NCBI RefSeq assembly: GCF_015097055.1
Contig: NZ_AP023366.1
Span: 2,622,001-2,686,000 of the forward strand
DNA length: 64,000 nt
From: Effusibacillus dendaii
GTDB taxonomy: Bacteria; Bacillota; Bacilli; Tumebacillales; Effusibacillaceae
Direction of reading: 5' to 3'
The notes under the pieces were generated by a model. It saw only the letters and a program-made list of their open reading frames with translations. It had not been told where the DNA came from and searched no databases. Positions 19,584 to 41,301 of this stretch are shown in pieces. A program made the position numbers and the translations under genes. Numbering within the stretch: position 1 is the stretch's first letter; every line of letters starts with the position of its first letter.

Positions 19584-20050
19584 ATAACTTATTTATCGCC
19601 TCCTTGTGTCTCACCTTATGGGTTCATTGTACTGGAGTACTGAGGTTGGTGGGAAAAACGGGTGATTGACCTATTGGAAAACGAACTTTAGAAAGCGACC
19701 GAGCAAGCCGGAAAAATAAGCGAGAGCCTATTCTTCACTTCGGGGCAGGCTCTTCTGGTTTGTTTCAGTTAGTAGATGAGTTGGCTCAGAGCGAGCGGTT
19801 TATGTTGGAGAATGAATTGATGGATACCAATGAAAAGGACTCTGATTACTTGGAAACTTCCATTTTATAAAACTTGGTCAATCCATGCTATGTGACGCAT
19901 GAAAAGATTGTGGAGGAAACAAAAACTTCGGTGTTTGTTTGAAAATTCCTGTTATGTTAACTGATTTCTATCGAATACAAGGAAAAAGAATGGTAGAATG
20001 GTGTCGAAGTGTGCGGGTATAGTCGATTTTCATTATATTTGGAGGAACAT
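19508..20050 (+). other. Region between the IS and the exporter genes, with a possible gene remnant
   Basis: Holds the right end of the IS, an open tail on the plus strand at about 19673-19870 without a start (reading ILHFGAGSSGLFQLVDELAQ, ending DYLETSIL and TAA), and the second 78-bp repeat. The tail reads like a real protein C-terminus but I do not recognise the family; it could be what is left of a gene cut by the IS. An imperfect hairpin AGAGCCT/AGGCTCT lies within it (about 19721-19753). Confidence 0.45.
19934..20011 (+). repeat. 78-bp direct repeat, copy 2 (before the ABC exporter genes)
   Basis: Same length and no gaps relative to 16383-16460; five mismatches by eye, two in the candidate -10 (TACTTT in copy 1, TGATTT here). 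Ends 39 bases before the permease ATG. Confidence 0.85.
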
Positions 20051-20896
20051 ATGCAAACCCATCTTCAGGTGGCCAAACAAAAACAAGCAGTTTGGAACCC
20101 GCTCTCAATAATTTCAAACCTGATAAAACATAAGGAATTAATTAAACAATTAACAAAACGGGAAGTGGTAGCTCGTTACAAAGGTTCCTATCTAGGGATA
20201 GCTTGGTCGTTTCTTACCCCATTATTGATGCTCGTGATTTACACATTCGTATTTAGCGTTATTTTTAAAGCGAAGTGGGGTGTCGGAAGCGATAGCAAGA
20301 CGGAGTTTGCACTTGTTTTGTTTTGTGGGCTTATTACTTATAATTTGTTTTCGGAAGTGGTCTCAAGGGCACCCAGTTTGATTCTGGCTAACGTGAATTA
20401 TGTGAAGAAAGTCGTGTTTCCGTTGGAAATTCTTCCTGTAGTGGCATTGGGTTCGGCGTTAGTGAACCTTGCGATTAGTTTGGTAATTTTGATCGTGGGT
20501 TTGGCAATTCTGTTGCAGACATTTCATTGGACCATTGTGTTATTACCGTTGGTTTTGCTGCCATTGGTTTTATTTACAACGGGGTTTGCTTGGTTTCTTG
20601 CATCTTTAGGTGTTTATATTCGGGATATCGGGCAAGTCATTGGTGTGGCCATTCAAATTTTGATGTTTATGAGCCCGATTTTTTATCCGATTTCATCCAT
20701 TCCTAAGGAGTTTCAGGAGTTCTTTTATTGGAACCCGATAAGTTTTGTGGTCGAGGATATGAGAAGAATTTTGGTGTGGGGACAGTTTCCGGATTGGAAT
20801 TGGTTATTGTTTGGTACGTTGCTTGGTGGACTGTTTACTGTTTTGGGATATGTTTGGTTTCAGCGTACAAGAGGGGGGTTTGCGGATGTCCTCTGA
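20051..20896 (+). CDS. ABC-2 polysaccharide export permease (Wzm/TagG-type)
   Basis: 281 residues from ATG 20051, chosen for GGAGGAACAT directly upstream. ABC-2 membrane domain: an N-terminal interface helix (LIKQLTKREVVARYKGSYLGIAWSF, split here: KREVVARYKGSYLG is the family hallmark), then about six membrane helices, with MSPIFYPISSIP near 215 and a C-terminal WFQRTRGGFADVL. Partner of the ATPase encoded next (11-base overlap). Exports lipid-linked glycan across the membrane in O-antigen, teichoic acid or S-layer glycan systems. Confidence 0.9.
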   Translation: MQTHLQVAKQKQAVWNPLSIISNLIKHKELIKQLTKREVVARYKGSYLGIAWSFLTPLLMLVIYTFVFSVIFKAKWGVGSDSKTEFALVLFCGLITYNLFSEVVSRAPSLILANVNYVKKVVFPLEILPVVALGSALVNLAISLVILIVGLAILLQTFHWTIVLLPLVLLPLVLFTTGFAWFLASLGVYIRDIGQVIGVAIQILMFMSPIFYPISSIPKEFQEFFYWNPISFVVEDMRRILVWGQFPDWNWLLFGTLLGGLFTVLGYVWFQRTRGGFADVL

Positions 20897-22388
20897 TGTG
20901 AAAGTAGTTGATCAATTGAATAGTACTAAACAAGCGGAAAAATCGGCTGATATAAACGCTACCAGTAATATTGCCATTTCGGTTAAAAATGTTGGTAAGT
21001 GTTTTCAAATTTATGATCGACCGCAGGATCGTTTAAAGCAAAGTATTTTTCGAGGTCGCCGGCAATATTACCGGGAGTTCTGGGCGTTAAAGGATGTGTC
21101 ATTCGAAGTTAAAAAAGGAGAGACTATAGGGATTATCGGTCGCAACGGATCCGGTAAAAGTACATTATTACAGATTATAGCCGGCACTCTGAGCCCTACT
21201 GAGGGGGAAGTACAGGTGAACGGAAGAGTTGCCGCTCTTTTGGAACTGGGTAGCGGATTTAACCCCGAGTTCACGGGGCGGGAAAATGTCTTTATGAACG
21301 GTGCTATTCTTGGTCTAAGCAAGGAAGATACAGATTCTCTCTTTGAAGATATAGTAGCCTTTGCAGACATTGGTGATTTCATCGATCAACCAGTCAAGAC
21401 CTATTCCAGTGGTATGGCAGTTCGGCTGGCCTTCGCAGTACAAGCTATGATCCCCAAAGAAGTCCTTATCGTCGATGAAGCTCTTGCAGTGGGTGATGAA
21501 CTATTCCAACGTAAGTGTTACGCCAAAATCGAAGAGTTTAAGCGACAAGGCGGCACGATTCTTTTCGTTTCTCACTCCGGTTCAACGATCATTGAGCTTT
21601 GTGACCGTGCCATGTTGCTTGATTCTGGTGAGTCTCTCTTAATAGGTCCAAGCAAAAGAGTCGTAAACTTGTATCAGAAATATATCTATGCACCTGCTTC
21701 GAAAAAAGAATTAATACGTCAAGAGATGATAGAACAATCTCAACAGTTTTCGGGTGAAGTGAATACTAAAGTACAATTGGCTGGCACTCAAAAGAGAGCA
21801 GAACGTGTTGAACAAAGTTCAGAAGCAAAACAAGTTCGCCAGAGAGCTATGTACGATCCATTTTTGGTTCCTAAAGAAACACTCCAATATGAATCCCGTG
21901 GAGCTAAAATATATAATCCCGAAATCACGACTCTAACCGGGGAAAAAGTAAATCTTTTAATTCCAGGCGATAGATATATCTGGCGTTACTATGTCAAATT
22001 TCACAAACCGTGTCAAAACCTTCGGTTTGGGATGTTGATTAAGACAGCGAGTGGCTTTGAGTTAGGCGGATCTGTTTCATCGTTCTCGGGTGAGGGGGTA
22101 TCTTTTTTACAAAGTGGGGATATAGTTAAAGTTGAATTTACCTTTACGCCTAGATTAAACACGGGAACCTATTTTCTAAATGGGGGAGTATTGGGGTTAA
22201 CTGAAGAAGGTGAAGTTTATCTTGATAGAGGAATTGATTTGGCTGCATTCAAAATACTCCATAATGAAGATTCTTTAATGACATCCATAGTAGACTTTAG
22301 CGTAGTTCCTGAAGTTATAGAAGTAGCCGGTCCAGATATTCCAGAAAGTAAAATCGAAGGTTTTCTGCACTCCTTGCATGAATGTTAA
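20886..22388 (+). CDS. ABC exporter ATPase with C-terminal Wzt-like extension
   Basis: 500 residues from ATG 20886 inside the permease gene (GAGGGGGG upstream). Walker A GRNGSGKST at 85-93, signature YSSGMAVRLAFA at 173-184, Walker B VLIVDEALAVGDE at 193-205, switch His in VSH near 230. Residues about 265-345 are a helical linker and 355-490 an all-beta domain (SGFELGGSVSSFSGEGVSFL, then TFTPRLNTGTYFLNGGVLGL) in the position of the Wzt carbohydrate-binding domain. In E. coli O9a-type systems that domain recognises the capped chain end before export. This fits the capping-type enzymes encoded nearby. Confidence 0.9.
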   Translation: MSSDVKVVDQLNSTKQAEKSADINATSNIAISVKNVGKCFQIYDRPQDRLKQSIFRGRRQYYREFWALKDVSFEVKKGETIGIIGRNGSGKSTLLQIIAGTLSPTEGEVQVNGRVAALLELGSGFNPEFTGRENVFMNGAILGLSKEDTDSLFEDIVAFADIGDFIDQPVKTYSSGMAVRLAFAVQAMIPKEVLIVDEALAVGDELFQRKCYAKIEEFKRQGGTILFVSHSGSTIIELCDRAMLLDSGESLLIGPSKRVVNLYQKYIYAPASKKELIRQEMIEQSQQFSGEVNTKVQLAGTQKRAERVEQSSEAKQVRQRAMYDPFLVPKETLQYESRGAKIYNPEITTLTGEKVNLLIPGDRYIWRYYVKFHKPCQNLRFGMLIKTASGFELGGSVSSFSGEGVSFLQSGDIVKVEFTFTPRLNTGTYFLNGGVLGLTEEGEVYLDRGIDLAAFKILHNEDSLMTSIVDFSVVPEVIEVAGPDIPESKIEGFLHSLHEC

Positions 22389-22468: not shown

Positions 22469-25400
22469 ATGAGTGTTCAAAGATCAAAAGCGATATGCGT
22501 TTTAGGTATGCATCGAAGTGGAACATCCACAATTACTCGTGCGTTAAATTTAATTGGAGCTTATATTGGTAAACATGAACAATTAATGCCGCCGAAGGAA
22601 GGTAACAATCCAGAAGGTTTTTGGGAACATATGGGGATAGTAAAAATCCATGAACAGATACTTCATAGATTATCCTCTAATTGGGATACAACTATTCCAC
22701 TTCCAGACAAGTGGTGGGAACTGCCAGAAATTCAACCTCTTAAAGACGAGTTGGTTAACTTAATTCATAATGAGTTTTTACAGTATCCCTTATGGGTGTG
22801 GAAAGATCCAAGATCTTGTTTGTTACTGCCTCTTTGGAAAGAGATATTTAAAGAGTTGAATATTGATGTCTCCTATGTCATAACGTTGAGAAACCCATTA
22901 GATGTGGCGGCTTCTCTTGAAAAGAGGGACGGTTTTTCGAAAGAAAAGTCTTTAGGAATTTGGACTTTATATACTTTATCCTCCCTAATGTATTCGAACG
23001 ACTCAGATCGTATCGTAATTCACTATGATCGGTTTTTGGAGGACTGGAATTCCACTTTAAAGGATGTCGCGACAGTTTGTAATATTCCTTGGCCTGAAGA
23101 TGACTTTAAATTGAGAGACGAGATGAAGAAATTTCTTAAGCCCAGTCTCCGACATAGTCAATCTAATGTCGAAAAGTTAATGGAAGATGAGAAAGTCCCA
23201 AGTTCAGTACTATCTACTTACCGTTACTGTCTTGAAGCAGAAAAGACTCATCCTGTGCTTCAATCAGCTGAATTCAAAAATAATATACATAAGCTTTTCA
23301 ATGAGTATGTCGGTTATACTAAAATGATAAGTTCGAGCTTTAATCCTACAAATAATATACATCAAAGTTTGCAAATTTATTGGAACGATAACGGTGGGTA
23401 TTCAGAAGAAAAATCTAAAATCGTCAGTGTGAATCCTGATGGCATGTTGCATACTTATGAATTATCTCTACCATCCAGTGTAATAGGTTCGTTACGAATA
23501 GATCCAGTTAACTTCCCTGCGTTTGTTGAGATCAAATCAATAGAACTTTTTAAAGAAACTCAAAAAGTAGAGAAACTTGAGTTATTGAAAAACTGCTCTT
23601 CAGACAATAACTTTGAAGGATTATCTGCAGGGACTGGTGTATTGCCACTGACAACCAAGGGCACATTCAAATTCCTTTCAATAAATGAGGATCCTCAACT
23701 TTTTATTAATGGGGTCACGATTTTAGATAAGGGACCTGTAATACTACGACTGGTCATGAAAGCAGAGGAACAAATTTCCTCTGATTTAACAAAACTGTTG
23801 GAAAGTGAGCTCAATAACCAGAAGACACAATTAAATCAATATGCTGCAGAGTTAGTGAATAAACAAAAGCAGATAAGTCAACAGGACGTTGAGTTGTCGA
23901 AAATGATGATTGAACTGACGGAAATAGAAGAACGGTTACTTGAACAAACCAATGAGTTATTGAGAATACAGATGAAGCTGACGGAAAAAGAAGAACAGTT
24001 GCTTGAACAAACCAATGAGTTATCGAGAATACAGATGAAACTGACGGAAAAAGAAGATCAGTTGTCTCATCTAACTAATGAATTGTCGAGTTTAAAATTT
24101 GACTTGCAGAAAAAAGGCCATCAGCTAGATGACCTGCTTGGTTCTACTTCATGGAAGGCTACCGCTCCTTTCCGTTGGCTGGGTACCAAAGCCCGAAAGA
24201 TGAAGCAGGCAACCAAAAACAGTCTTCAAATACTTCTCCGTAGAAAGTATCGTTTGCAACTTATACCCGTTAATCAATTGCAACCTGGGAGTCAGGCGGG
24301 CGTTTGGCAATCGGTTGGGAATGACCCTCAGTTTCTTCTTCAGGGAAGTTTCCCGGTTGGGTGGGTAGAAATTTCGTGGGTTTCAATGGCGGATTCTTTA
24401 ATACCTTTAAAGATATACTGGGACGAGGGTGCGGGTATCAATGAAAGTCAGAGCCTAAATCTTGGTTCAATCTTGCCAGAAGGAAATGTTCAATCTGCAT
24501 ACGTCAATTTAAGTCCCATGGCTAAGTCTCTTAGACTAGATCCTGGGGAAGAACCAGGCCAATTCATGTTATCGGATATAACAATAGTCAAAATTAGTCG
24601 GTTACATGTTGTTAAGAAATCTTTGAAATCATATTTGCGGATACACGGAAGTTCATTTTCCAGTCTCATCAACCTTGTTCAAAAAGCGTTAAGAATTTAT
24701 TCGAATGAGGGGATTCGTGGTCTTTGGAATAGGGCCAAGTGTCCTTCAAAAAGTGACATACTAAGGGATCAGTTTAAAGACTATGAACAGTGGCTGAAAT
24801 TAACGAAGCTGACAAACGAGAAAAGACAAGAGATTTTGGATGATATTGCAACATTGCCATATCAACCTTTGATTTCTGTAATTGTACCCGTTTATAACGT
24901 GGAAGAACGTTGGTTGCGAAAATGTATTGAATCGGTACGAAACCAACTCTATCCTAAATGGGAATTGTGCATTGCTGACGATGCTTCTCCTAAGTCTCAC
25001 GTAAAGAAAGTCCTAAAAGAATATGCCACAAAAGACCCCCGTATAAAGGTGGTCTTTCGGGAAGCTAACGGACACATTTCAGAGGCCTCCAATTCAGCTT
25101 TAGAACTTGCAACAGGAGAATTCGTTGCTTTATTGGATCATGATGATGAATTAACTCCTGATGCTCTTTATGAAAATGTTATTTTACTTAATCGATACCC
25201 TGATGCAGATATGATCTACAGTGATGAAGATAAGATTAGTCCAGATGGACTAAGGCATTCACCGTTTTTTAAGCCTAATTGGTCACCAGATACATTTTTG
25301 TCTCAGATGTATACCTGCCATTTAGGGGTGTATCGGACTAGTCTCGTTCGTAGTGTAGGAGGGTTCCGTAAAGGATTTGAGGGAAGCCAAGATTACGATT

Positions 25401-26470
25401 TGGTCCTTCGTTTGACTGAGAAGACCGATCGAATCTTTCATATTCCTAAAATCTTATATCATTGGAGAACTATTCCTCAATCAACGGCGTCAAGCGCTGT
25501 TTCAAAAGGATATACTCAAGACGCCAGTTTGCGTGCTATTGAAGAGGCCTTGGTTCGCAGAAAAATTGACGGGTGGGTAGAAGCGGTGAAAGATACTCCG
25601 AATGTTTATCGGGTTCATCACCGTCCAAAGGGAGTGCCCCTCATTTCAATCTTAATCCCGATTCGAGATATGGCTGATGTCATTGATATATGCTTGAGTT
25701 CTATTTTTCAAAAGACAACCTATAAAAATTTTGAAGTTATCATTATTGATAACGGCAGCGAGCAACAACAAACATTTGATACTTTTGAAAAATGGATTGA
25801 AAGGGAACCGGAACGTGTACGGGTAGAACGTATGGAGATACCCTTTAATTACTCACGATTAAATAATTTGGCGGTTAAGTTGGCGAGAGGTGAGTTGATC
25901 TTACTATTAAATAATGATGTGGAAGTCATTTCTCCTGACTGGCTGGAGGAAATGGCAGGTCAAGCTCAACGGTCAAGTGTTGGCGCTGTTGGGGCGATGT
26001 TACTTTACCCGGATAAAACGATCCAACATGCGGGTGTAATACTGGTTGGTGGTGTTGCTGGCCACAGTCATAAACATTTTGACGCTGAGAGTCCTGGATA
26101 CTTTTATCGCTTGCGTTTAGTAACAAATTATTCCGCAGTTACAGCAGCTTGCTTAATGGTAAGAAAAGAAGTGTTTGAACAGATAGGAGGATTGGATGAG
26201 GAGTTGGCAGTAGCTTTTAACGATGTTGATTTCTGTTTGAAACTAAGTGAAAAGGGACTTTATAATGTATGGTTACCTCATGTTCGACTTTATCACTATG
26301 AATCCAAAAGTAGGGGACACGAAGATACCCCGGAAAAACAATTGAGATTTCGGAAAGAGATTGACCTTATGAAAGAACGATGGGGTGATCTTCTATTAAA
26401 TGACCCGTTCTACAATCCGAACTTAACACTAGATCGAGAGGATTTTTCGTTAGGGGTTCCTGTGAGATAG
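22469..26470 (+). CDS. Giant sulfotransferase-like / coiled-coil / double GT2 glycosyltransferase
   Basis: 1333 residues from ATG 22469 (GGGAGG nine bases upstream); an ATG at 22382 overlapping the Wzt stop would add 29 residues but has no binding site. Order: 1-290 sulfotransferase-like domain with P-loop VLGMHRSGTS (11-20) and VITLRNPLDVA (about 136-146), the two PAPS-binding blocks; 300-430 beta domain (LQIYWNDNGGYSEE); 431-560 coiled coil with 21-residue repeats; 640-720 second similar beta domain (LKIYWDEGAGINES); 798-1010 GT2 domain with DDAS and DHDDE; 1056-1333 second GT2 domain with NNDVEV. Likely a glycan polymerase with its own end-modifying domain, comparable in plan to WsaE of Geobacillus, where a methyltransferase replaces the sulfotransferase. 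Confidence 0.85.
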   Translation: MSVQRSKAICVLGMHRSGTSTITRALNLIGAYIGKHEQLMPPKEGNNPEGFWEHMGIVKIHEQILHRLSSNWDTTIPLPDKWWELPEIQPLKDELVNLIHNEFLQYPLWVWKDPRSCLLLPLWKEIFKELNIDVSYVITLRNPLDVAASLEKRDGFSKEKSLGIWTLYTLSSLMYSNDSDRIVIHYDRFLEDWNSTLKDVATVCNIPWPEDDFKLRDEMKKFLKPSLRHSQSNVEKLMEDEKVPSSVLSTYRYCLEAEKTHPVLQSAEFKNNIHKLFNEYVGYTKMISSSFNPTNNIHQSLQIYWNDNGGYSEEKSKIVSVNPDGMLHTYELSLPSSVIGSLRIDPVNFPAFVEIKSIELFKETQKVEKLELLKNCSSDNNFEGLSAGTGVLPLTTKGTFKFLSINEDPQLFINGVTILDKGPVILRLVMKAEEQISSDLTKLLESELNNQKTQLNQYAAELVNKQKQISQQDVELSKMMIELTEIEERLLEQTNELLRIQMKLTEKEEQLLEQTNELSRIQMKLTEKEDQLSHLTNELSSLKFDLQKKGHQLDDLLGSTSWKATAPFRWLGTKARKMKQATKNSLQILLRRKYRLQLIPVNQLQPGSQAGVWQSVGNDPQFLLQGSFPVGWVEISWVSMADSLIPLKIYWDEGAGINESQSLNLGSILPEGNVQSAYVNLSPMAKSLRLDPGEEPGQFMLSDITIVKISRLHVVKKSLKSYLRIHGSSFSSLINLVQKALRIYSNEGIRGLWNRAKCPSKSDILRDQFKDYEQWLKLTKLTNEKRQEILDDIATLPYQPLISVIVPVYNVEERWLRKCIESVRNQLYPKWELCIADDASPKSHVKKVLKEYATKDPRIKVVFREANGHISEASNSALELATGEFVALLDHDDELTPDALYENVILLNRYPDADMIYSDEDKISPDGLRHSPFFKPNWSPDTFLSQMYTCHLGVYRTSLVRSVGGFRKGFEGSQDYDLVLRLTEKTDRIFHIPKILYHWRTIPQSTASSAVSKGYTQDASLRAIEEALVRRKIDGWVEAVKDTPNVYRVHHRPKGVPLISILIPIRDMADVIDICLSSIFQKTTYKNFEVIIIDNGSEQQQTFDTFEKWIEREPERVRVERMEIPFNYSRLNNLAVKLARGELILLLNNDVEVISPDWLEEMAGQAQRSSVGAVGAMLLYPDKTIQHAGVILVGGVAGHSHKHFDAESPGYFYRLRLVTNYSAVTAACLMVRKEVFEQIGGLDEELAVAFNDVDFCLKLSEKGLYNVWLPHVRLYHYESKSRGHEDTPEKQLRFRKEIDLMKERWGDLLLNDPFYNPNLTLDREDFSLGVPVR
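23917..24105 (+). repeat. 63-bp tandem repeats encoding three-heptad coiled-coil units
   Basis: Units start at 23917, 23980 and 24043, each opening with GACGGAAA(T/A)AGAAGA. The first two differ by only a few bases; the third diverges in its second half. Each encodes 21 residues (LTEKEEQLLEQTNEL-type), exactly three heptads, so unit gain or loss would keep the coiled-coil register. Confidence 0.9.
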
Positions 26471-27417: not shown

Positions 27418-28983
27418 CTAGAAGTTCGGTGAAAAAGCCCGCCTTAGCAGGCTTTTACCACGGGTTTGCCGAATTGATACTATAACAAACCATCGAAAGA
27501 GTGATTGAACATGGAAGCTCGTAAGTCATCGGCCATCCAGCCTCAGATGTTCCAATTTGTGGACATGGACGAACTGGTGCCCAAAAAGCATATCCTGCGC
27601 CAACTGAACGAAGCGCTTGATTTTTCCGTTGTCCATGACTGGGTGGCGCCGCTGTACACGGAACGTACCGGCCGCCCGGCGGCTGACCCGGAGCGGATGG
27701 TTCGATTGATGCTGCTTTCCTACCTGTTCAACCACTCCGAACGGGAATTGTATCAATTGCTATCTATGCATGCGGGCTATTTGTGGTTTTGCGGGCTGGA
27801 TTTCGAATCCGTTCAGCGACCGAGTCCGAACCGTCCCTCCCTTCCGGATCGAACGACCTTGGTTAAGACCCGCAAATTGTGGCGAAAGCATGGGATTTTC
27901 GAGCAAATGATGATCCATGTTGTCGATCAGTGCATTGCGGCTGGCTTGGTAAAACCGGACGTCCACGCAGGGGTGGACGGATCGCAGGTACGAGCCAACG
28001 CATCCGTTCACAGCCTGCAGGAAATCACATTGGCCCCGGTGCATTCCATTGAGGAGTACTTGTCAGAATTAGCTCGTCAGGATCAAGACGAAATGCCTGT
28101 GGACCCGAAAAAGGAGGATTCCGATCCCCCTCCGTCGTCCTCCGTAAGGTCCGCTTCAGAGACGACACGCTTACAAGAAGAGGCTGTCCATGAAGACTTT
28201 CACGGCAAGAAGTTTTCCAATGCGACACACCGAAGCGTAACCGATCCGGACGCCCGGTTATACAAGAAGAGCAAAGGGCAGGAGGCCTATTTGCGCTATT
28301 TGGTCCATAACGTCGTCGATGTGACTTCAGGCGTCATTTTGTCAACGCAGGCAAGTCTTGCGGCGGGCACGGCGGAACGGGAGATCAGCCTTCGACAACT
28401 GGCAGCCCTTCGTTTTCAACATCCGACGATTCGGATTCGCACCGTATCCGCCGACAAAGCATATGGAACCCCGGAATATCTTGGCGCATTATTTGCACAA
28501 GGGATGATTCCGCTTGTTTCGCTTCGGAATCTGGAACTTTAACCGATCCCAACCTGGAACAGACAAACCCATGATCCAGAAAAACAGGGAAAAAGAGAGG
28601 TCAAAGTACAAGAAGTTCTGATCAAAAACAAAGCCAAACGAATCCAACTGGAAGGCAAGTATCGACAGATCCAAAAAAGGCGTACTCGTTGCGAACATGC
28701 CTTTGCAGAAGCAAAAACGGTGCACGGGCTGGATCGTGCACGGAGTAGGGGGCTGGAGAGTATGCAAGAGCAGACATTACTGACCGCCATCGTCCAAAAT
28801 TTGAAAAGGTTATGCCGGTTTAAGAAAAAACGACCTCAAACCGGTATTTTGGCATGCCAAAATCCGGAATCCGTGATCAGGGAAGAAACTCTAACCTCTG
28901 CCATTTCCAGGTTATGTTCAGCTATTTTTTCGTGCATAAGGCCATTCCACACCGTAAACCGGCATTTTTCACCGGACTTCTAG
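27418..28983 (+). mobile_element. IS1182-like insertion sequence
   Basis: Left end CTAGAAGTTCGGTGAAAAA at 27418-27436 is inverted at the right end (TTTTTCACCGGACTTCTAG, 28965-28983) with one mismatch. The outer CTAG is present on both sides and could instead be a 4-bp target duplication. About 1.57 kb. The left end cuts a decayed coding frame and the right end cuts into a GtrB-like glycosyltransferase gene. Confidence 0.85.
27505..28983 (+). pseudogene. IS1182-family transposase with one internal stop
   Basis: One frame runs from ATG 27505 to the TAG in the right inverted repeat (about 492 codons) except for TAA at 28540-28542. Before the stop: N-terminal MFQFVDMDELVPKKHILRQL and GVDGSQVRANAS (first catalytic Asp region), and SADKAYGTPEY (second Asp). 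After it, in the same frame, EHAFAEAKTVHGLDRARSRG supplies the Glu region. A single nonsense change therefore separates the last catalytic residue from the rest; the element is probably not self-mobile. Confidence 0.88.
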
Positions 28984-28984
28984 G

Positions 28985-29791
28985 AAACATGGAATAGAGT
29001 TGGCGATGTTGGCCGGATTGAACAGGTCTGTTGGAGAATTCGTGTTCGAGATCGAATCGACGATCATGGATTATCCAGTCAATATCCTGAACCAATTGTT
29101 CAAAACCGCGACAAGCGGATACGATATTGTTTCGGCGGCTTCCTCAAAGAAACCTGGAATCAATTCGAGACTCTTTTACGCATTAATTAACAAGTTATCT
29201 TTTCTGGATCTGAGTTTATCGACCGAAAGTCTAAAAATAGTATCACGTAGGGCTTTGAACGCGATGCTTAATCATAAAGAAAAAGTAAGATACAGAAAGG
29301 CTCTTTATGCATTCACAGGTTACGGGCAAACCAAGTTGGAATATGAACCGCTTCCCGAAGTCAAAAAACCTCCTAAAAAACTTAATAGAGAAAACGTTAC
29401 TTTGGCGTTTGATGTTATAGTATCCTTTTCTAACTACGGTTTAAAAGTTGCTCATTATCTGTCTCTAGGGTTCTTTCTGTTTTCGGTTTTGATGATCGGA
29501 TATGCATTTTACAACTATTTGTTTAACGAAAAAGTGGTCGAAGGCTGGACCACTATTATGATCCTAGTGGCAACCGGATTTGCAGGATTGTTTTTTATCT
29601 TGGGGATGCTGGGGGAATATCTTGCCCGGGTTCTTATTGAAGTGCAGGACAGGCCTTTTTACAGTTTGAAATCAGTAGAGGTCTACAAAGATAAAGAACA
29701 TTACCTAATGCCAAATTTTGCAGAACTGGAAGCGGCAGCCACTGCTGCAAGGAATGAGTTCTTGAAAACTTTGGAAGGAGAATCTGTATGA
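28985..29791 (+). pseudogene. GtrB/DPM1-like GT2 glycosyltransferase, 5' end removed by the IS
   Basis: The frame is open from the IS border. It starts as HGIELAMLAGLNRSVGEFVF, which corresponds to the middle of a polyprenyl-phosphate glycosyltransferase; the first 80-100 residues with the nucleotide-binding VVVPVYNE-type strand are missing. The rest is complete, with two C-terminal membrane helices (about 29440-29510 and 29550-29640) and a cytosolic tail. TTG 29000 could start translation but would give an enzyme without its donor site. The downstream gene overlaps by four bases, so the fragment may still matter as a leader. Confidence 0.8.
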
Positions 29792-31393: not shown

Positions 31394-32227
31394 ATGAAAA
31401 TGAATGATGATAGTTGGCAAATACCAAAACATAATTTAATCGAACTTAAGGAACGCGCATCAAAGTATTGTGTTTGTATTCCTGTTATCAATGAAGGGGA
31501 AAGAATTCGTAATCAATTGCAGAGGATGGCCGAGGTCGCCAAGGGGATAGATATCATCATTGCGGATGGCGGAAGTACCGATGGTTCATTGGAATTGGAT
31601 TTTCTCAAATCCATGGGAGTCAAGGCGTTGCTTGTGAAAACGGATAAAGGAAAGCTCAGCGCACAATTGCGTATGGGATTCGCGTATGCGATTCGGGAGG
31701 GATACGAAGGAATTGTTACAGTTGATGGTAACAACAAGGATAGTATGGAGTCGATCCCTGACTTTATCAAAGAACTGGAATCCAGTGCGGATTTTGTACA
31801 AGGTTCCCGACATGTACCAGGCGGTCAGGCAATCAATACACCGTTGATTCGAAGACTTGCCATTAAGTTAATTCATGTTCCGGTCATTTCTATGTTATCT
31901 GGATTTAAATATTCGGATACTACGAATGGGTTTCGTGGACATTCCCGTAGACTTTTGCTGGATCCGAGAGTTCAACCTTTCAGGGACCTATTTGACACAT
32001 ATGAACTCTTAGCCTATCTTTCTGTCAAAGCCCCTAGAATGGGATATAAAGTAAAAGAAATTCCCGTTATCCGAAAGTACCCGAAAACCGGTAAAACCCC
32101 TACAAAAATTAGTCCACTAAAGGGAAATATTACACTGCTAAAGATTCTTCTCAATTTAGCTTTAAAAAAGTATGATGTTAAGTGTTATGTTAGTCCGATC
32201 ACACACAACCGGGAGGAAATAGAATGA
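31394..32227 (+). CDS. GT2 (DPM1-like) glycosyltransferase
   Basis: 277 residues; GAGGTAT upstream of the ATG. N-terminal GT-A core: CVCIPVINEGERIRNQL, DIIIADGGSTDGSLE, then GIVTVDGNNKDSMESIPDFI (metal site) and DFVQGSRHVPGG. No membrane helix at the C-terminus, unlike full DPM1/GtrB proteins. The four-base overlap with rmlA puts it in the same transcript. Confidence 0.8.
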   Translation: MKMNDDSWQIPKHNLIELKERASKYCVCIPVINEGERIRNQLQRMAEVAKGIDIIIADGGSTDGSLELDFLKSMGVKALLVKTDKGKLSAQLRMGFAYAIREGYEGIVTVDGNNKDSMESIPDFIKELESSADFVQGSRHVPGGQAINTPLIRRLAIKLIHVPVISMLSGFKYSDTTNGFRGHSRRLLLDPRVQPFRDLFDTYELLAYLSVKAPRMGYKVKEIPVIRKYPKTGKTPTKISPLKGNITLLKILLNLALKKYDVKCYVSPITHNREEIE

Positions 32228-32967
32228 AAGGCATTATCCTGGCGGGTGGAACTGGATCCCGTCTTTATCCACTTACAAAAGTAACAAATAAGCACTTACT
32301 GCCTGTAGGTAAATACCCGATGATTTTTCACGCTATTTATAAACTGCGTGAAGCAGATATTCAGGAAATCCTTATTGTGACCGGAAAGGATCACATGGGG
32401 GATGTGGTCAACCTTTTGGGAAGTGGCCGTGAATTAGGTGTAGAATTTACTTACAAGGTTCAAGACCAAGCAGGTGGAATTGCCCAAGCTCTGGGATTGG
32501 CGGAAGCGTTTGTCGGAAACGAGCAAATGGTTGTGATTCTTGGAGACAATGTGTTCTCTGATAGCATAATAGATTATGTTAAAAACTTTAAGCAACAGCA
32601 AAAAGGCGCCAAAATCTTGATTAAAGAAGTACACGATCCTAAACGGTACGGAGTTCCGGAACTGCAGGGTGACAAGATTGTTTCGATTGAGGAAAAACCT
32701 TCAGTTCCCAAGAGCTCTTTTGCAGTAACGGGTATCTATATGTATGACAGTCGTGTATTCGATATCATCAAAACCCTAGTTCCATCCGGCCGGGGGGAAT
32801 TGGAAATCACAGATGTTAATAATGCCTATATTCAGAGTAATGAGCTGACCTATGATGTTCTGCAGGGATGGTGGACAGATGCAGGTACTCATGGATCCTT
32901 AACACGCGCCAATGAGCTGGCAAAGGATCTTTACTTTGGGGACGATTTCGGTAAGTTGAAACTATAA
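32224..32967 (+). CDS. rmlA: Glucose-1-phosphate thymidylyltransferase
   Basis: 247 residues, the short RmlA form. GIILAGGTGSRLYPLTKVTN is the nucleotide-binding signature, followed by KHLLPVGKYPMIF, LGDNVF (metal Asp) and EEKPSVPKSSFAVTGIYMYD. Makes dTDP-glucose from dTTP and glucose-1-phosphate, first step to dTDP-L-rhamnose. ATG overlaps the previous stop. A truncated second copy is at 59.2 kb. Confidence 0.95.
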   Translation: MKGIILAGGTGSRLYPLTKVTNKHLLPVGKYPMIFHAIYKLREADIQEILIVTGKDHMGDVVNLLGSGRELGVEFTYKVQDQAGGIAQALGLAEAFVGNEQMVVILGDNVFSDSIIDYVKNFKQQQKGAKILIKEVHDPKRYGVPELQGDKIVSIEEKPSVPKSSFAVTGIYMYDSRVFDIIKTLVPSGRGELEITDVNNAYIQSNELTYDVLQGWWTDAGTHGSLTRANELAKDLYFGDDFGKLKL

Positions 32968-32986
32968 TAAAGCGGAGTGGAATGAA

Positions 32987-34009
32987 ATGAGACTTCTTAT
33001 TACCGGTGGAGCAGGATTTATAGGCAGTAACTTCGTCCACTACATGATTAATAAGTACCCGAATTATCAAATTATCAATCTGGATGCTTTAACGTACGCT
33101 GGAAACCTTGAGAATCTGCACAATATTGAAAGACATTCTAATTACTCCTTTGTAAAAGGGGATATCATAGACCGCCAATTGGTTGATGAGCTTTTTAAAC
33201 GTGGAGTTGACGTGGTAGTTAACTTTGCTGCGGAATCTCATGTTGACCGGAGTATCACGGACCCAGATATATTTGTTAAAACGAATGTGATGGGAACACA
33301 GGTGTTGCTCGATGTGGCAAAAAAATATGGAGTTAAAAAATATGTTCAGGTATCAACTGATGAGGTATATGGTACATTAGGGGAAACGGGACTGTTTACA
33401 GAACAAACATCGCTCGCTCCAAACAGTCCTTATTCGGCGAGTAAAGCGGGGGCCGACTTGCTTGTCCGGGTGTATCATGAAACGTTTGGTCTGCCGGTTA
33501 ACATTACCCGTTGTTCCAACAATTACGGACCGTATCAGTTTCCAGAAAAACTGATACCGTTGATGATTGCCAATGCTCTATCGGACAAGCCTCTGCCCGT
33601 GTATGGTGACGGTTTGAATATCCGAGACTGGCTGCATGTTTACGATCACTGTTCGGCCATCGATCTCGTGATTCACAAAGGGAAAAACGGGGAAGTATAC
33701 AACATTGGTGGCAATAATGAGAGAACTAATATTGATATTGTAAAAACGATTCTGCACGAATTGGGTAAACCGGAATCCCTTATTCGATTTGTGTCAGATC
33801 GTCTCGGGCATGACCGCCGTTACGGGATTGACGCGAAAAAGATTAAAACGGAATTGGGGTGGCAACCAAAATATACGTTTGAAACTGGTATCAAGGAAAC
33901 AATCCGATGGTATCTTGACCATCAGGATTGGTGGAAACGGATTCAGTCGGGAGCTTATCAGGAATATTACGAGAAACAATATGGAGAGCGGTTGGGTGCT
34001 AATAAATGA
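32987..34009 (+). CDS. rmlB: dTDP-glucose 4,6-dehydratase
   Basis: 340 residues. RLLITGGAGFIGSNFVHYMI (NAD site), NFAAESHVDRSI, STDEVYGTLG with the catalytic Thr-Asp-Glu, and PYSASKAGADLLVR with the YxxxK pair. Second step of dTDP-L-rhamnose synthesis. Ends four bases inside rmlD. Confidence 0.96.
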   Translation: MRLLITGGAGFIGSNFVHYMINKYPNYQIINLDALTYAGNLENLHNIERHSNYSFVKGDIIDRQLVDELFKRGVDVVVNFAAESHVDRSITDPDIFVKTNVMGTQVLLDVAKKYGVKKYVQVSTDEVYGTLGETGLFTEQTSLAPNSPYSASKAGADLLVRVYHETFGLPVNITRCSNNYGPYQFPEKLIPLMIANALSDKPLPVYGDGLNIRDWLHVYDHCSAIDLVIHKGKNGEVYNIGGNNERTNIDIVKTILHELGKPESLIRFVSDRLGHDRRYGIDAKKIKTELGWQPKYTFETGIKETIRWYLDHQDWWKRIQSGAYQEYYEKQYGERLGANK

Positions 34010-34857
34010 GAGTACTGGTGACAGGTGCAAATGGACAACTCGGGAAAGATGTTGTGAAAATTTTAAGTGAACGTCACGAAGTACACGGGTTTGGCCGTGA
34101 TAGATTGGATATCACAGATCTGACACAGTGCCGTGAAGTGGTTCGTTCAATCAGACCAGATATAATCATACATGCGGCTGCTTATACGGCTGTTGATCTC
34201 GCCGAATCGGAAGAAGATCAGGCATATCGTTTAAATGCGTTGGGAACGAGAAATATTGCCCTTGCTTCCCGAGAAGTCGAAGGCAAGATTTGTTATATCA
34301 GTACCGATTACGTATTTGACGGAATGGCTGAAAGCCCGTACAGGGAATATGACCATACCAACCCTATCAACGTGTATGGAAAATCAAAACATGCTGGTGA
34401 ACAGTTTGTACAAACGATGACAACCAAGCATTTCATTGTGAGAACATCTTGGGTGTATGGCCTGCACGGTAATAATTTTGTCAAAACCATGTTGAAGCTG
34501 GGCAAGGAACGGGAGTCACTTCAAGTGGTAAATGACCAGATCGGTTCGCCCACGTATACGGTCGATTTGGCTCATTTTCTTGAGCAATTGATAACAACCG
34601 ATTTTTATGGAATTTATCACGCAACCAATGCAGGGGTTTGTTCCTGGTTTGAGTTTGCGAATGCAATCTTCGAAGAAAGTGGCATCACGGTAAATGTGAA
34701 TCCTTGTACCACAGAAGAATTTCCCCGTCCTGCAGCCAGACCGAACTACTCTGTACTCGATCACATGGCCATTCGGACAAACGGTCTCTCCGATCTACGG
34801 CACTGGCGGGAAGCGTTGAAAGATTTCATGCAGGAATTCAAAAACCAAAATTTCTGA
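34006..34857 (+). CDS. rmlD: dTDP-4-dehydrorhamnose reductase
   Basis: 283 residues. VLVTGANGQLGKDVVKIL (NADPH site), AAYTAVDLAESEEDQAYRLN, STDYVFDG, and PINVYGKSKHAGEQFV with YxxxK. Last step to dTDP-L-rhamnose. Gene order here is A, B, D, glycosyltransferase, C. Confidence 0.95.
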   Translation: MRVLVTGANGQLGKDVVKILSERHEVHGFGRDRLDITDLTQCREVVRSIRPDIIIHAAAYTAVDLAESEEDQAYRLNALGTRNIALASREVEGKICYISTDYVFDGMAESPYREYDHTNPINVYGKSKHAGEQFVQTMTTKHFIVRTSWVYGLHGNNFVKTMLKLGKERESLQVVNDQIGSPTYTVDLAHFLEQLITTDFYGIYHATNAGVCSWFEFANAIFEESGITVNVNPCTTEEFPRPAARPNYSVLDHMAIRTNGLSDLRHWREALKDFMQEFKNQNF

Positions 34858-34871
34858 CCGGGATGATTCCG

Positions 34872-35816
34872 ATGTCAAAAGTGAGTGTTCATATTGTCAC
34901 ATATAACTCTGCTCGTGATATCGAAACCTGTTTAGCGTCCGTATTCAAGCAGACCTGCCCGATTGACCAAATCATAGTGATCGACAATGATTCCCATGAT
35001 GGTACTTCGGAAATACTACAAGCGTATAACAATAAAATTAAGTTTGTGCAGAATAACACAAATTTGGGGTTTGCAGCCGCCCATAATCAAGCGATTCGGA
35101 TATCGAACAGCGATTATTGTTTAATCTTAAATCCGGATGTGGTTCTTAATCCTGGTTATGTTGAGAGATTGCTAGATCATGCGAAACAAGACCCTGAAAT
35201 TGGGGCGGCCACCGGCAAATTGTTGCTTGCCTCTGCAGTCGATCAAATTGACAGCACAGGTATCTTAATCACTAAATCCCGCAGGGCGTTTGATCGGGGA
35301 GTCAACCAACCTGCAGATCGATGGAACTCAGTTCAAGAAGTATTTGGCGTATCGGGTGCTGCCGCTTTGTACCGACGAGAAATGATTGAGGACATTAGCT
35401 TAAACTGCCAATTTTTTGATGAATCTTTCTTTGCCTACAAAGAAGATGTCGATGTGGCGTGGCGCGGTCAGTTGTTAGGGTGGAAAGCTGTTTATGTGCC
35501 GGACGCCGTTGCGTACCATGAACGTGGTTGGAAAACGGGGAAGCGATCTAAACAGTCGGTGCGGATTCGCCAACACTCTTATATTAATCGTTATCAGATG
35601 ATGCTAAAAAACGAGAGTTTATTTTTCTTTCTGCTCCATCTACCGTTTATATTGCCTTATGAACTGGCGGCATTTCTGTACATGATGGTAAGGGAGCCAA
35701 ACGTATTGTCTGCTTGGAAAATCTTGTTTAGAAATTTGCCCCATTTGATCAAATGGCGCAAATGGATTAAACAGAAACGAACAGTACCGTATCATGAGGT
35801 CTATCGTTTCTTTTAA
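34872..35816 (+). CDS. GT2 rhamnosyltransferase-like glycosyltransferase
   Basis: About 314 residues from ATG 34872; ATG 34863 is equally possible (binding site weak for both). GT-A motifs: SVHIVTYNSARDIETCLASV, DNDSHDGTSE, and LNPDVVLNPGYV (DxD-equivalent), then VSGAAALYRREMIED and FAYKEDVDVAWRGQLLGW, as in WbbL-type rhamnosyltransferases. C-terminal part is basic and amphipathic, probably touching the membrane. Its location between rmlD and rmlC supports dTDP-rhamnose as donor. Confidence 0.85.
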   Translation: MSKVSVHIVTYNSARDIETCLASVFKQTCPIDQIIVIDNDSHDGTSEILQAYNNKIKFVQNNTNLGFAAAHNQAIRISNSDYCLILNPDVVLNPGYVERLLDHAKQDPEIGAATGKLLLASAVDQIDSTGILITKSRRAFDRGVNQPADRWNSVQEVFGVSGAAALYRREMIEDISLNCQFFDESFFAYKEDVDVAWRGQLLGWKAVYVPDAVAYHERGWKTGKRSKQSVRIRQHSYINRYQMMLKNESLFFFLLHLPFILPYELAAFLYMMVREPNVLSAWKILFRNLPHLIKWRKWIKQKRTVPYHEVYRFF

Positions 35817-35828
35817 AGGGTGGTTATC

Positions 35829-36371
35829 ATGAAGATCACAGAAACGAAATTATCGGGAGTATTCATCATCGAACCGGATGTGTTTGAAGATCATCGCGGT
35901 TTTTTTATGGAAAGTTACAATCAGGAGAAGTTCCGAGGATTAGGCCTGGACTTTAATTTTGTGCAGGACAACCAGTCGTTATCCGTGGAAGTGGGTACGC
36001 TGCGTGGATTGCATTACCAATTGGAGCCGAAAGCGCAAACCAAATTGGTCCGTGTCTTGTCTGGTGCCATCTATGATGTAGCGGTTGATATCCGAAAAAA
36101 TTCTCCAACGTTTGGTCAGTGGGTGGCAGTCGAGTTAAGCGTTGCGAATAAGAAGCAGTTGCTGATTCCGAAAGGATTTGCCCACGGATTCTGTACAATT
36201 GAACCGAATACGATGGTATTCTATAAAGTGGACGAGTTTTATTCACCCGAACATGATCGCGGGATTCTGTGGAATGACCCGGAGATTGGAATTCCGTGGC
36301 CGACTGATAACCCCGTTTTATCCCAGAAAGATCAAATTCATCCTTCATTAAAAAATGCGGAAATCAGTTGA
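35829..36371 (+). CDS. rmlC: dTDP-4-dehydrorhamnose 3,5-epimerase
   Basis: 180 residues from ATG 35829 (GGGTGG upstream). Cupin fold: FEDHRGFFMESYNQEKFRGL, TLRGLHYQ with the catalytic His, VDIRKNSPTFGQW and IPKGFAHGF with Tyr/Asp partners (YKVDEFYSPEHDRGI). Completes the rhamnose pathway. Confidence 0.95.
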   Translation: MKITETKLSGVFIIEPDVFEDHRGFFMESYNQEKFRGLGLDFNFVQDNQSLSVEVGTLRGLHYQLEPKAQTKLVRVLSGAIYDVAVDIRKNSPTFGQWVAVELSVANKKQLLIPKGFAHGFCTIEPNTMVFYKVDEFYSPEHDRGILWNDPEIGIPWPTDNPVLSQKDQIHPSLKNAEIS

Positions 36372-36415: not shown

Positions 36416-37336
36416 ATGGATCTGTCAATTGTCATCGTCAGTTACAACACCAAAGACCTCCTGATCCAAACGCTCGATTCAGTGTTTCGTCACACTTCAG
36501 GGCTTTACTTGGAAGTATTTGTGGTAGATAACGCTTCATCCGATGGAAGTCCAGAGGCAGTAACGGATCTGTATCCACAGGTGAAGATTATCCGTAATCA
36601 AAAGAACGAGGGATTCGCAGCAGCTAACAACCAGGCGATTGAACAGGCAACGGGTCGCTATATACTGCTGTTAAATTCCGACACCATTGTGCAGGAATCA
36701 ACGTTTCATACGATGATTACATATATGGATGGTCATTCAAAGATCGGTGCGGCTGGATGCAAAGTCGTTAAACCGGACGGAACGCTTGATTTGGCTTGTC
36801 GCCGCAGTTTTCCGACACCGATGAATTCCTTGTACCAGGCGTTAAAACTGGACAAATTGTTTCCGCAAAGCCCGCGCTTTGCCTCCTACAATCTGACATA
36901 TCTCGATGAAAACGAAATGTATCAGGTAGATTGTCTGGTTGGTGCGTTTATGATGGTGCGGCGGGAAACGATTGACCAGGTCGGGATGCTTGACGACCAG
37001 TTTTTTATGTATGGCGAAGATATTGATTGGTGCTATCGGATCAAACAGGCCGGTTGGCAGATTTGGTATTATCCGAAAACAAGTATCATTCATTATAAAG
37101 GGGCCAGCAGTGCGAAAAAGAAGTACCGCATGATTTGGGAGTTCCACAGGGCTATGATCCTTTATTACCGGAAACATCATGCCGGAAATTCTATATTTCT
37201 GGTAAACTGGCTGGTCTATTTAGGAATCTTGTCGCGTTACGTGATGGTTGCAACGTTAAACCTGTTCAAAAAGCGAGGGAAGCAGCATGATCCGCTCTTA
37301 TCAAACCCTTCTCAATCGCATACTTATACTGCTTGA
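36416..37336 (+). CDS. GT2 rhamnosyltransferase-like glycosyltransferase
   Basis: 306 residues with GGAGG before the ATG. LSIVIVSYNTKDLLIQTLDS, DNASSDGSPEAV, LLNSDTIVQ, VGAFMMVRRETIDQVG and MYGEDIDWCYRIKQAGW are the WbbL-like set. A C-terminal hydrophobic segment (about 255-280) may associate with the membrane. It overlaps the next gene by 50 bases. A weak -10 (TATAAT at 36383) lies upstream but lacks a properly spaced -35. Confidence 0.88.
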   Translation: MDLSIVIVSYNTKDLLIQTLDSVFRHTSGLYLEVFVVDNASSDGSPEAVTDLYPQVKIIRNQKNEGFAAANNQAIEQATGRYILLLNSDTIVQESTFHTMITYMDGHSKIGAAGCKVVKPDGTLDLACRRSFPTPMNSLYQALKLDKLFPQSPRFASYNLTYLDENEMYQVDCLVGAFMMVRRETIDQVGMLDDQFFMYGEDIDWCYRIKQAGWQIWYYPKTSIIHYKGASSAKKKYRMIWEFHRAMILYYRKHHAGNSIFLVNWLVYLGILSRYVMVATLNLFKKRGKQHDPLLSNPSQSHTYTA

Positions 37337-38690
37337 TGCGAGCGTAGTTGCCCTTGCGTTCTATTTGGCATGGTTTCTGAAATTCCGCTCCGGATTGATG
37401 GATTCGACCGATTCAATTGGCGAATTGGGTTACGTAGGAATCGCCATAGCCATGATTCTCGTCTATTTGATTACCAATTCGATATATGGGCTGTACACGC
37501 CCCATCGAACCCGGAGGCTTCGGAGTGAATTGACGCAGATTGTCAAAAGTTCAGTGACGGGCGTTCTGATTCTGATGAGTATCCTGTTCTTTATTAAAGA
37601 AATTCACGTTTCCCGTGCGGTACTGGGGATGTTTATGGGCCTGTCTGTTGTTTTCCTTTCAATGGAACGGATCGGTTTGCGGATGGTTTTACGGCGAATG
37701 CGATCGATGGGATACAACAAAAAGTTTATGCTGATTATTGGGGCTGGTCCGTTGGGCCGGAATGTACTGAAACTGATCACGGATAACAGACAGTTCGGAT
37801 TTGAAGTGCTGGGATTTCTGGACGACCGACTGTATCCGGTTGCCGAAACGGTGGATGATGTGCCAATTTTGGGAACGATAGACGAACTGGAAACCGTTTT
37901 AAACAGCCATTTGATCGATCAGGTGGTATTGGCGCTGCCCATCGAGGCACATCATAAGATTGGACAGATTATCAGCCTGTGTGAAAAAATGGGCATTCAG
38001 GCGCTCATCATCCCGGACTATTTCAACTACCTGCCTGCCAAACCGAAATTTGAAGAAGTCGGCGGCATTCCGATGATCGATGTGCGGCATGTGCCTTTGG
38101 ACGAGGCGATGAATGCGGGCATCAAGCGGATTTTTGACATCGGGTTTTCGTTGGCGGCTTTATTGGTACTTTCCCCGCTGCTTCTCATCATTGCGGTCGG
38201 TGTCAAACTTACATCGCCCGGCCCTGTTCTGTTCGCGCAGGAACGGGTAGGGAAAAACCGCCGGATTTTTAAAATGTACAAGTTTCGCTCAATGCGGGTC
38301 AGCACGGATGAATCGTCGGATACGCAGTGGACGGTGGAAAATGACCCCCGTCGAACGAAGTTTGGTTCTTTCTTGCGAAAAACCAGTTTGGATGAGCTCC
38401 CCCAGTTCTTTAATGTGCTGAAGGGAGATATGAGCATTATCGGTCCGCGTCCGGAACGGCCTTATTTTGTCGAACAGTTTAAAGAGGATATTCCGAAATA
38501 CATGATCAAGCACCGTGTTCGCCCGGGGATCACCGGCTGGGCGCAGATCAACGGCTGGCGCGGCGACACGTCGATTGAAGAACGTATCAAGTATGATATA
38601 CATTATATTGAGAACTGGACCTTTGCAATGGATTTGAAGATTGTGTGGAAAACGGTGGTTAATGGGTTTGTTAATAAGAATGCGTATTGA
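37287..38690 (+). CDS. Undecaprenyl-phosphate sugar phosphotransferase (WbaP/WsaP/CpsE-type)
   Basis: 467 residues. Four or five N-terminal membrane helices (to about 140), a Rossmann-like central domain (MLIIGAGPLGRNVLKLI), and a C-terminal bacterial sugar transferase domain: KRIFDIGFSLAALLVLSPLL, ERVGKNRRIFKMYKFRSMR, TSLDELPQFFNVLKGDMSII with GPRPERP, and PGITGWAQINGWRGDT. It attaches the first sugar phosphate to undecaprenyl phosphate, which starts glycan assembly. The gene closes the main cluster. GAGGGAAGC precedes the ATG. Confidence 0.93.
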   Translation: MIRSYQTLLNRILILLDASVVALAFYLAWFLKFRSGLMDSTDSIGELGYVGIAIAMILVYLITNSIYGLYTPHRTRRLRSELTQIVKSSVTGVLILMSILFFIKEIHVSRAVLGMFMGLSVVFLSMERIGLRMVLRRMRSMGYNKKFMLIIGAGPLGRNVLKLITDNRQFGFEVLGFLDDRLYPVAETVDDVPILGTIDELETVLNSHLIDQVVLALPIEAHHKIGQIISLCEKMGIQALIIPDYFNYLPAKPKFEEVGGIPMIDVRHVPLDEAMNAGIKRIFDIGFSLAALLVLSPLLLIIAVGVKLTSPGPVLFAQERVGKNRRIFKMYKFRSMRVSTDESSDTQWTVENDPRRTKFGSFLRKTSLDELPQFFNVLKGDMSIIGPRPERPYFVEQFKEDIPKYMIKHRVRPGITGWAQINGWRGDTSIEERIKYDIHYIENWTFAMDLKIVWKTVVNGFVNKNAY

Positions 38691-41269: not shown

Positions 41270-41301
41270 GATTGCAATAAGGTTTAAATGAGGTGATGGT
41301 T

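Follow-up and report, generated by a model that had tools for sequence, protein, structure and literature searches.

We found that a protein of Effusibacillus dendaii, 1333 amino acids long, is best explained as one polypeptide that both polymerizes and terminates a surface glycan, rich in rhamnose and exported by an ABC transporter, and whose cap enzyme is a PAPS-dependent sulfotransferase. We put the probability of this reading, which draws on sequence comparisons and structural models of a 64-kb stretch of DNA (the window), at roughly 70%. The new element is the proposed sulfate cap for the ABC-export route; the architecture of polymerase, coil and cap is itself already known. A first-pass annotation of this DNA had suggested the combination of polymerase, coiled-coil ruler and sulfate cap, and the suggestion was supported by the swapping of cap domains, by the type of Wzt C-terminal domain and by PAPS genes in similar clusters.

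In the proposed mechanism, two C-terminal GT2 modules would work at the membrane, adding sugars to a lipid-linked chain, and the sulfotransferase, positioned at the far end of the coil, would reach the chain end only once the chain was long enough. It would then sulfate the non-reducing terminal sugar and stop growth, and the C-terminal domain of Wzt would bind the sulfated end, licensing export via WzmWzt. We infer sulfate on the glycan, a terminal-rhamnose acceptor, ruler action with control of chain length, and recognition of sulfate by Wzt; we likewise presume that the glycan is delivered to its destination, perhaps the S-layer.

Layout of the reading frame and its neighbors

The reading frame was open from 22382, but it is the ATG at 22469 that is preceded, at a distance of 9 nt, by a GGGAGG Shine-Dalgarno sequence. 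A start at this ATG gives a fused terminator-polymerase of 1333 aa ending at 26470 (22469..26470, + strand; ORF list, Pfam). The gene order is Wzm, Wzt, and then this ORF, all on the + strand. Wzm is an ABC-2 permease (20009..20896; PF01061, E = 5e-32) whose true start is probably slightly downstream of 20009. The Wzt ATPase (20811..22388; PF00005 and PF14524) has a probable start near 20883 and carries a Wzt_C domain (~21882–22295; PF14524, E = 5e-24). Genes for dTDP-rhamnose supply were found on the same strand, namely rmlA (32224–32967), rmlB (32987–34009), rmlD (34006–34857) and rmlC (35820–36371); a separate GT2 gene (34704–35816, +) lies between rmlD and rmlC within the rml block (32224..36371). 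The window also encodes an initiating sugar-phosphate transferase of the Bac_transf type, which is WsaP-like (37287..38690, +; PF02397, E = 2e-74).

Within the ORF, the sulfotransferase domain (residues 1–285) is followed by a first beta domain, termed beta-1 (286–441), a coiled coil (453–549), an SWKxTAPFR-type motif, a partial beta domain and two GT2 domains. That is, a cap-type catalytic domain is present N-terminal to an extended coiled coil. The ORF had no Pfam match to a methyltransferase or kinase domain, its N-terminus having a predicted sulfotransferase fold. As read from sequence, this anatomy matches that of the coiled-coil polymerase-terminators WbdD, WbbB and Klebsiella O7 ORF6.

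Sequence comparison and a model (pLDDT 75) described beta-1 (23324..23791, +) as a beta-sandwich with an LRIDP motif, and the module is common to methyltransferase- and kinase-headed relatives. Structure searches with the model matched no known fold reliably: the top Foldseek hit had E = 9.5e-3, and VIA ranked a glucanase first (Z = 6.7), with legume lectins next. We do not claim a carbohydrate-binding role from these matches. Comparison with beta-1 placed a second stretch at residues ~640–745 (24386..24703, +). The two aligned over 74 residues with 29% identity (E = 7e-7 for the pair, and 0.0014 for the domain when scored with the beta profile), but the second lacked the C-terminal half of the domain. 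The coiled coil was located by heptad scan (23825..24115, +). Part of it is built from a 63-bp tandem repeat (23913..24064, +; TRF score 262) with 2.4 copies at 92% matches, each unit encoding 21 residues, or three heptads. At the end of the coil is the motif STSWKATAPFR (24143..24175, +), which may be a membrane or recruitment segment; motifs of the SWKxTAPFR type occurred in 14 of 32 Wzt-adjacent relatives versus 5 of 1493 background ORFs.

Both GT2 domains are intact in their motifs. Domain A spans residues 803–1000 (24875..25468, +; PF00535, whose match covers 803–960) with a DHDD motif, and domain B spans residues 1059–1281 (25643..26311, +; Pfam) with an NND motif. The first-pass annotation had described one frame directly after a Wzt with a C-terminal extension, containing a repeat-built coiled coil, two GT2 cores and two related beta domains. 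Each of these features was recovered, except that the second beta domain, while related to the first, is only partial.

The polymerase half was also found behind a different head. An E. coli protein with a methyltransferase-coil-GT2-GT2 order (L202) matched residues 708–1322 at 50% identity in a 615-residue alignment; its head is probably a methyltransferase-kinase. Likewise, the beta-coil module was headed by a methyltransferase in L044 and L045, and by an APH-like kinase in L046. These alignments indicate that the cap enzyme is exchanged while the beta-coil module and the GT2-GT2 polymerase are conserved.

The N-terminal sulfotransferase domain

The sulfotransferase domain (22469..23323, +) was assigned from Pfam, a family profile, conservation and the predicted fold. 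It contains the 5'-PSB loop GMHRSGTS, the 3'-PB residues R141/S149, and invariant E53 and K112. Evidence from the single sequence was weak: Pfam Sulfotransfer_3 matched residues 9–210 at E = 3.7e-4 (21.3 bits versus a cut-off of 27), and a phmmer search of the domain against the PDB returned chance matches only. Single-sequence searches of viral contigs and genome contigs gave no relatives of the domain, so an alignment was needed to find them. At the family level the assignment was firm. Sulfotransfer_3 matched at E ≤ 0.01 in 74/84 relatives, the family profile matched solved sulfotransferases, and residues R16, G18, S20, E53, K112, R141 and S149 were unchanged across the 84 aligned relatives.

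The AlphaFold model of the domain had a pLDDT of 95.4. Its best fold match was the tyrosylprotein sulfotransferase TPST1 (VIA Z = 15.7, rmsd 4.0, 211 aligned), followed by the olefin-synthase/CurM, STF9, 3-OST and NDST sulfotransferases, with several sulfotransferase classes at Z 10–16. Fold and invariant residues together upheld the earlier description of GMHRSGTS as a PAPS-type P-loop, and the N-terminus is probably a PAPS-dependent sulfotransferase, an activity predicted from sequence and model. We also considered that it might be a P-loop kinase, or might resemble a sulfotransferase but lack activity and serve only as a scaffold. The Pfam score below cut-off and the presence of kinases at Z ~10 in the fold list would fit this idea, but sulfotransferases lead that list at Z 14–16, neither PAPS-binding motif varies across 84 sequences, and APS kinase genes neighbor the sulfotransferase in many loci. 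The kinase assignment of the P-loop was rejected on the fold ranking, and we regard the idea as a whole as highly improbable.

Related loci, PAPS supply and the Wzt C-terminal domain

We surveyed 80 loci that were found by the sulfotransferase domain alone. In 32/80 loci, no more than 150 bp separated the sulfotransferase from a Wzt-like gene, and in 25 of these 32 a coil followed the sulfotransferase. The same gene arrangement was present in several bacterial phyla, with Cohnella luojiensis and a Pseudomonas fluorescens strain among its carriers. No recognized Wzt was found beside the sulfotransferase in 48/80 relatives, so the family also acts elsewhere. An APS kinase gene, for PAPS supply, occurred in 19/80 loci versus 1/27 controls (Fisher p = 0.02), and in the nearest relative (Cohnella, L051) it lies directly before wzm. 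The 64-kb window itself held no PAPS gene near the ORF; E. dendaii's own APS kinase gene is ~650 kb away, adjacent to that for Sat. An E. coli plasmid (L199) carried a Sulfotransfer_2 domain with a coil and GTs after Wzt, and cysDN in the cluster. Its sulfotransferase belongs to an unrelated family in the same slot and constitutes an independent case.

The enzyme could instead be a real sulfotransferase that modifies sugars inside the chain or on its branches while the chain is growing; its ending and export would then depend on something else. The many relatives not beside Wzt point this way, as do the three sulfotransferases in one Paenibacillus ferrarius cluster (L052), which recall sulfated polysaccharides, and the methyltransferase gene upstream of the ORF (16585–17652), whose product could modify the same glycan. 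Against internal decoration, the sulfotransferase is located at the coil's distal end, which is where characterized terminators carry their cap domain (PMC11231755), it takes the position that a methyltransferase or kinase cap holds on this module in relatives, and it goes with one type of Wzt C-domain. We judge internal decoration unlikely.

This last association was examined with Wzts from Bacillota and E. coli loci as non-linked controls. The C-domain of the window's Wzt was 35–62% identical to those of 27 sulfotransferase-linked Wzts (nearly all), versus 12–23% for non-linked ones; at an ATPase-domain identity of 60–65%, median C-domain identities were 44% and 17%, respectively. Two sulfotransferase-linked loci (L055, L068) lacked a matching C-domain. 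These comparisons indicate an association between the sulfotransferase and one type of Wzt C-domain. The ATPase domains of linked Wzts also clustered together in a tree, so joint inheritance may account for some of the coupling. Pressed further, the link would reflect shared ancestry of a travelling cassette instead of sulfate recognition, and the grouping of linked Wzts in both the ATPase and C-domain trees agrees with this. However, the C-domains differ sharply at equal ATPase-domain identity, L122 has an outlying ATPase lineage yet a C-domain of the linked class, and the plasmid L199 Wzt falls in that class despite its unrelated sulfotransferase family. We consider a travelling cassette quite unlikely as the whole explanation.

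On the preferred reading, a sulfated chain end recognized by Wzt, we lean towards terminal sulfate being a widespread, unrecognized class of export cap in several phyla, with its own Wzt C-domain class and at least two origins (Sulfotransfer_3-like, and Sulfotransfer_2 on the E. coli plasmid). If true, the known cap types would be joined by an end mark that is charged and depends on PAPS, tying the length and export of a surface glycan to sulfate assimilation. Surface chemistry would also become predictable from sequence for many bacteria, environmental and host-linked alike. The presence of polymerase, ruler and cap in one protein makes the idea directly testable.

Comparison with known systems

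For the ABC-export route, the caps listed in the literature are methyl, phosphate or methylphosphate groups, along with special sugars, Kdo among them (PMC9445017, PMC11231755). The first-pass annotation knew of no described sulfate-capped version. Our literature search, which looked for sulfate as a cap and for sulfotransferase genes next to wzm/wzt, agreed, returning only an Aeromonas salmonicida gene and a passing mention for E. coli group 3 capsules; an earlier mention in a 2020 review of O-antigen chain termination is possible. In the A. salmonicida wbsalmo cluster, ORF19 is likewise a sulfotransferase-domain gene directly after wzt, but it encodes a separate 216-aa protein before a WbbB (PMC4483657). 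That paper assigns it no function, and the O-antigen structures cited there show no sulfate.

WbdD of E. coli O9a and Klebsiella O3 resembles our ORF in having a cap enzyme, a coiled-coil ruler and a membrane-proximal end, with a Wzt C-domain that reads the cap; it differs in its kinase-methyltransferase cap and in leaving polymerization to a second protein, WbdA. Klebsiella O12 has WbbB, which is built from a GT99 Kdo transferase, a coil and GTs and similarly unites polymerization, termination and ruler in one chain, whereas its cap is the sugar Kdo and its GTs belong to other families. No GT99 head was found in the 1333-aa ORF: compared with a WbbB-type E. coli protein (L203), the N-termini were unlike and the coil alone aligned, and the Wzt C-domain of that locus was 14% identical to that of the window. 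WsaE, of the Geobacillus stearothermophilus S-layer glycan, combines an N-terminal modifying domain with two rhamnosyltransferases in the S-layer-type cluster of a Gram-positive bacterium. Compared by description, it differs in its methyltransferase cap, a domain that our ORF lacks.

The E. coli RCAD0514 protein L202 (1279 aa, after Wzt) shares the coil, an SWKLTKPLR motif, and a cluster with rml genes and WzmWzt; it differs in its N-terminus, where a methyltransferase precedes a stretch that is probably a kinase, and its Wzt C-domain is only 16% identical to that of the window. Klebsiella pneumoniae O7 ORF6 has the order methyltransferase-kinase, CBM-like domain, coiled coil, GT2 and GT2 (PMC11231755). 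From its description it shares with our ORF a cap, a beta domain, a coil, two C-terminal GT2 rhamnosyltransferases and WzmWzt, but where O7 ORF6 carries a methyltransferase-kinase that adds a methylphosphate cap, the E. dendaii protein carries a predicted sulfotransferase.

Architecture and setting of the fused protein

The ORF (window 22469–26470, + strand) encodes a single 1333-aa frame after wzt, which ends at 22388 and carries a Wzt_C domain; wzm (20009–20896) also precedes it. We placed the start at ATG 22469 rather than at an alternative in-frame ATG (22382) because GGGAGG lies 9 nt before the former. The protein comprises a sulfotransferase domain (residues 1–285), a beta-1 domain (286–441), a coiled coil (453–549), an STSWKATAPFR motif (559–569), a partial second beta domain (about 640–745) and two GT2 domains (803–1000, DHDD motif; 1059–1281, NND motif). 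The frame, the repeat-built coil and the two GT2 cores described in the first-pass annotation were all present, whereas only the first of its two related beta domains was complete. In part of the coil, a 63-bp unit (21 residues, three heptads) is repeated in tandem 2.4 times with 92% matches, and the coil therefore probably grew recently through unit duplication. The beta domain with its LRIDP motif (window 23324–23791) is common to methyltransferase-, kinase- and sulfotransferase-headed coil proteins (relatives L044, L045, L046 and L051); it matched no Pfam family and gave no clear fold match.

Besides rmlA, B, D and C, the surrounding glycan cluster contains a Bac_transf initiating enzyme and additional glycosyltransferases. 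Because an O-antigen-ligase-like protein (Wzy_C, 777 aa) is encoded just upstream of the window and SLH-domain proteins occur in the same genome, the product could plausibly be an S-layer glycan. A 138-codon SLH-domain remnant of a broken S-layer-type gene (15264–15680) lies ahead of the cluster. The ORF is single-copy in its genome, and no counterpart of its N-terminal half was found in three genomes of the genus. The wzm-wzt-ORF segment has 37–41% GC versus 45–50% in its surroundings, and is flanked by two transposase genes. An insertion element within the cluster (17741–19587) encodes a 535-aa DDE transposase between inverted ends of 24 nt; the second transposase gene (27505–29000) has an in-frame stop at about 28542 and is likely a pseudogene. 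Adjoining it is a GtrB-like GT2 gene (29000–29791), seemingly lacking its N-terminus, and a GT2 occupies the same position and gene order in Paenibacillus ferrarius (L052). An 82-bp direct repeat (93%), found ahead of a methyltransferase gene at 16585 (16379–16460) and ahead of wzm (19930–20011), is a putative duplicated leader or promoter region. Elsewhere in the window, a DUF4433/DarT-like protein comes after a Macro-domain protein (41293–43208), and by eye the two resemble a DarTG-type toxin-antitoxin pair.

Identity of the N-terminal domain and PAPS supply

As a single sequence, the N-terminus fell below the Pfam cut-off. Counting its relatives gave strong evidence for a sulfotransferase: 74 of 84 family members matched Sulfotransfer_3, and PDB matches of the family profile were olefin-synthase, CurM and SULT sulfotransferases. 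Structure prediction of the domain returned a sulfotransferase fold (AlphaFold, pLDDT 95.4), with tyrosylprotein sulfotransferases as top structural matches (Z 15.7, rmsd 4.0, 211 aligned), followed by STF9, 3-OST and NDST. Seven residues were invariant in the family: R16, G18 and S20 in the 5'-PSB loop, R141 and S149 in the 3'-PB element, and E53 and K112.

APS kinase genes occurred within the retrieved flanks of 19/80 sulfotransferase loci versus 1/27 control Wzt loci (Fisher p 0.02), directly ahead of the sulfotransferase in L098, L103, L113 and L127, and directly ahead of wzm in Cohnella luojiensis (L051). In the window's genome, sat and APS kinase lie side by side about 650 kb from the ORF. 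A P. ferrarius cluster (L052, 9998–14011), with no recognised Wzt nearby, combines an APS kinase with three sulfotransferase genes; its product is probably a multiply sulfated polysaccharide.

Linkage to Wzt and exchange of the cap domain

Scanning the sulfotransferase alignment against one genome per species yielded 80 loci. In 32, at most 150 bp separated the gene from a Wzt homologue (29 with a conventional Wzt), and a coil followed the sulfotransferase in 25 of these 32. An S-SWR-T-PLR motif was found in 14/32 Wzt-adjacent loci versus 5/1493 background ORFs. The arrangement is widespread, with hosts that include Pseudomonas, Legionella, Vibrio, Rhizobiaceae, Nitrosospira, Thermodesulfobacteriota, Myxococcota, Lentisphaerota and Bacillota.

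Three comparisons show that the cap domain is swapped as one unit while the frame that carries it stays the same. On the beta-coil module, a methyltransferase takes the place of the sulfotransferase in L044 and L045, and an APH-like kinase does so in L046; each of these clusters contains WzmWzt and encodes the GT2-GT2 part as a separate gene. Residues 708–1322 of the ORF share 50% identity with an E. coli protein, L202, in its polymerase half; at its N-terminus L202 has a methyltransferase and then a probable kinase stretch. In the nearest relative, C. luojiensis L051, the sulfotransferase-beta-coil part is its own 566-aa protein directly after wzt, followed by a 1276-aa glycosyltransferase.

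The window's Wzt C-domain was 35–62% identical to those of 27 sulfotransferase-linked Wzts, versus 12–23% for 28 Wzts with other neighbours. At 60–65% ATPase-domain identity, median C-domain identity was 44% (linked) versus 17% (other), the pairs not being independent, and the ranges did not overlap except for L055 and L068. In these two exceptions the sulfotransferase adjoins Wzt, yet the C-domain is unrelated. Among 398 Bacillota genomes, the C-domain type occurred only where a sulfotransferase adjoins (48% identity; next match 31%). The linked ATPase domains group together as well, and joint inheritance therefore explains part of the association. L122, which carries a C-domain of this class on an outlying ATPase domain, speaks for selection acting on the C-domain. 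Linked C-domains have D349, G364, N381, Y389, R405, N457 and R473 in common; of these, R405 and R473 may contact the sulfate.

The same design apparently arose independently on an E. coli plasmid (L199; pKTa005_1, NZ_CP147085.1, 5507–24441). The plasmid cluster, present in 1/5426 complete E. coli genomes, comprises rml genes, wzm and wzt, encodes a 1787-aa protein after wzt, and continues with cysD, cysN and an SLC13 permease. That protein combines a long coil of 14-residue repeats, SWRITKPLR and several glycosyltransferases with a head from a different sulfotransferase family, Sulfotransfer_2 (E 1e-22). The plasmid's Wzt C-domain groups with the sulfotransferase-linked class (mean 31% versus 17% to others).

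Comparison with known chain terminators

The analysis itself showed the domain anatomy, the fold, the conserved PAPS residues, the exchange of modules and the linkage between genes; for the mechanism we drew on the established systems WbdD, WbbB and Klebsiella O7 ORF6 (PMC11231755, PMC9445017). By analogy, the GT2 pair would make a rhamnose-rich chain, the coil would hold the sulfotransferase off until the chain reached sufficient length, sulfate on the last sugar would stop growth, and the sulfated end would be read by Wzt. The initial observation was real, and its interpretation as a polymerase with a coil ruler and a sulfate cap is well supported by comparison. Published lists of caps give methyl, phosphate/methylphosphate and Kdo. 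No paper found in our literature search named sulfate among them, which agrees with the earlier statement that no described sulfate-capped version was known (one review on the topic lay outside the search). We concluded that the ORF belongs to the coiled-coil polymerase-terminators, with a proposed cap chemistry, sulfate, that appears to be undescribed.
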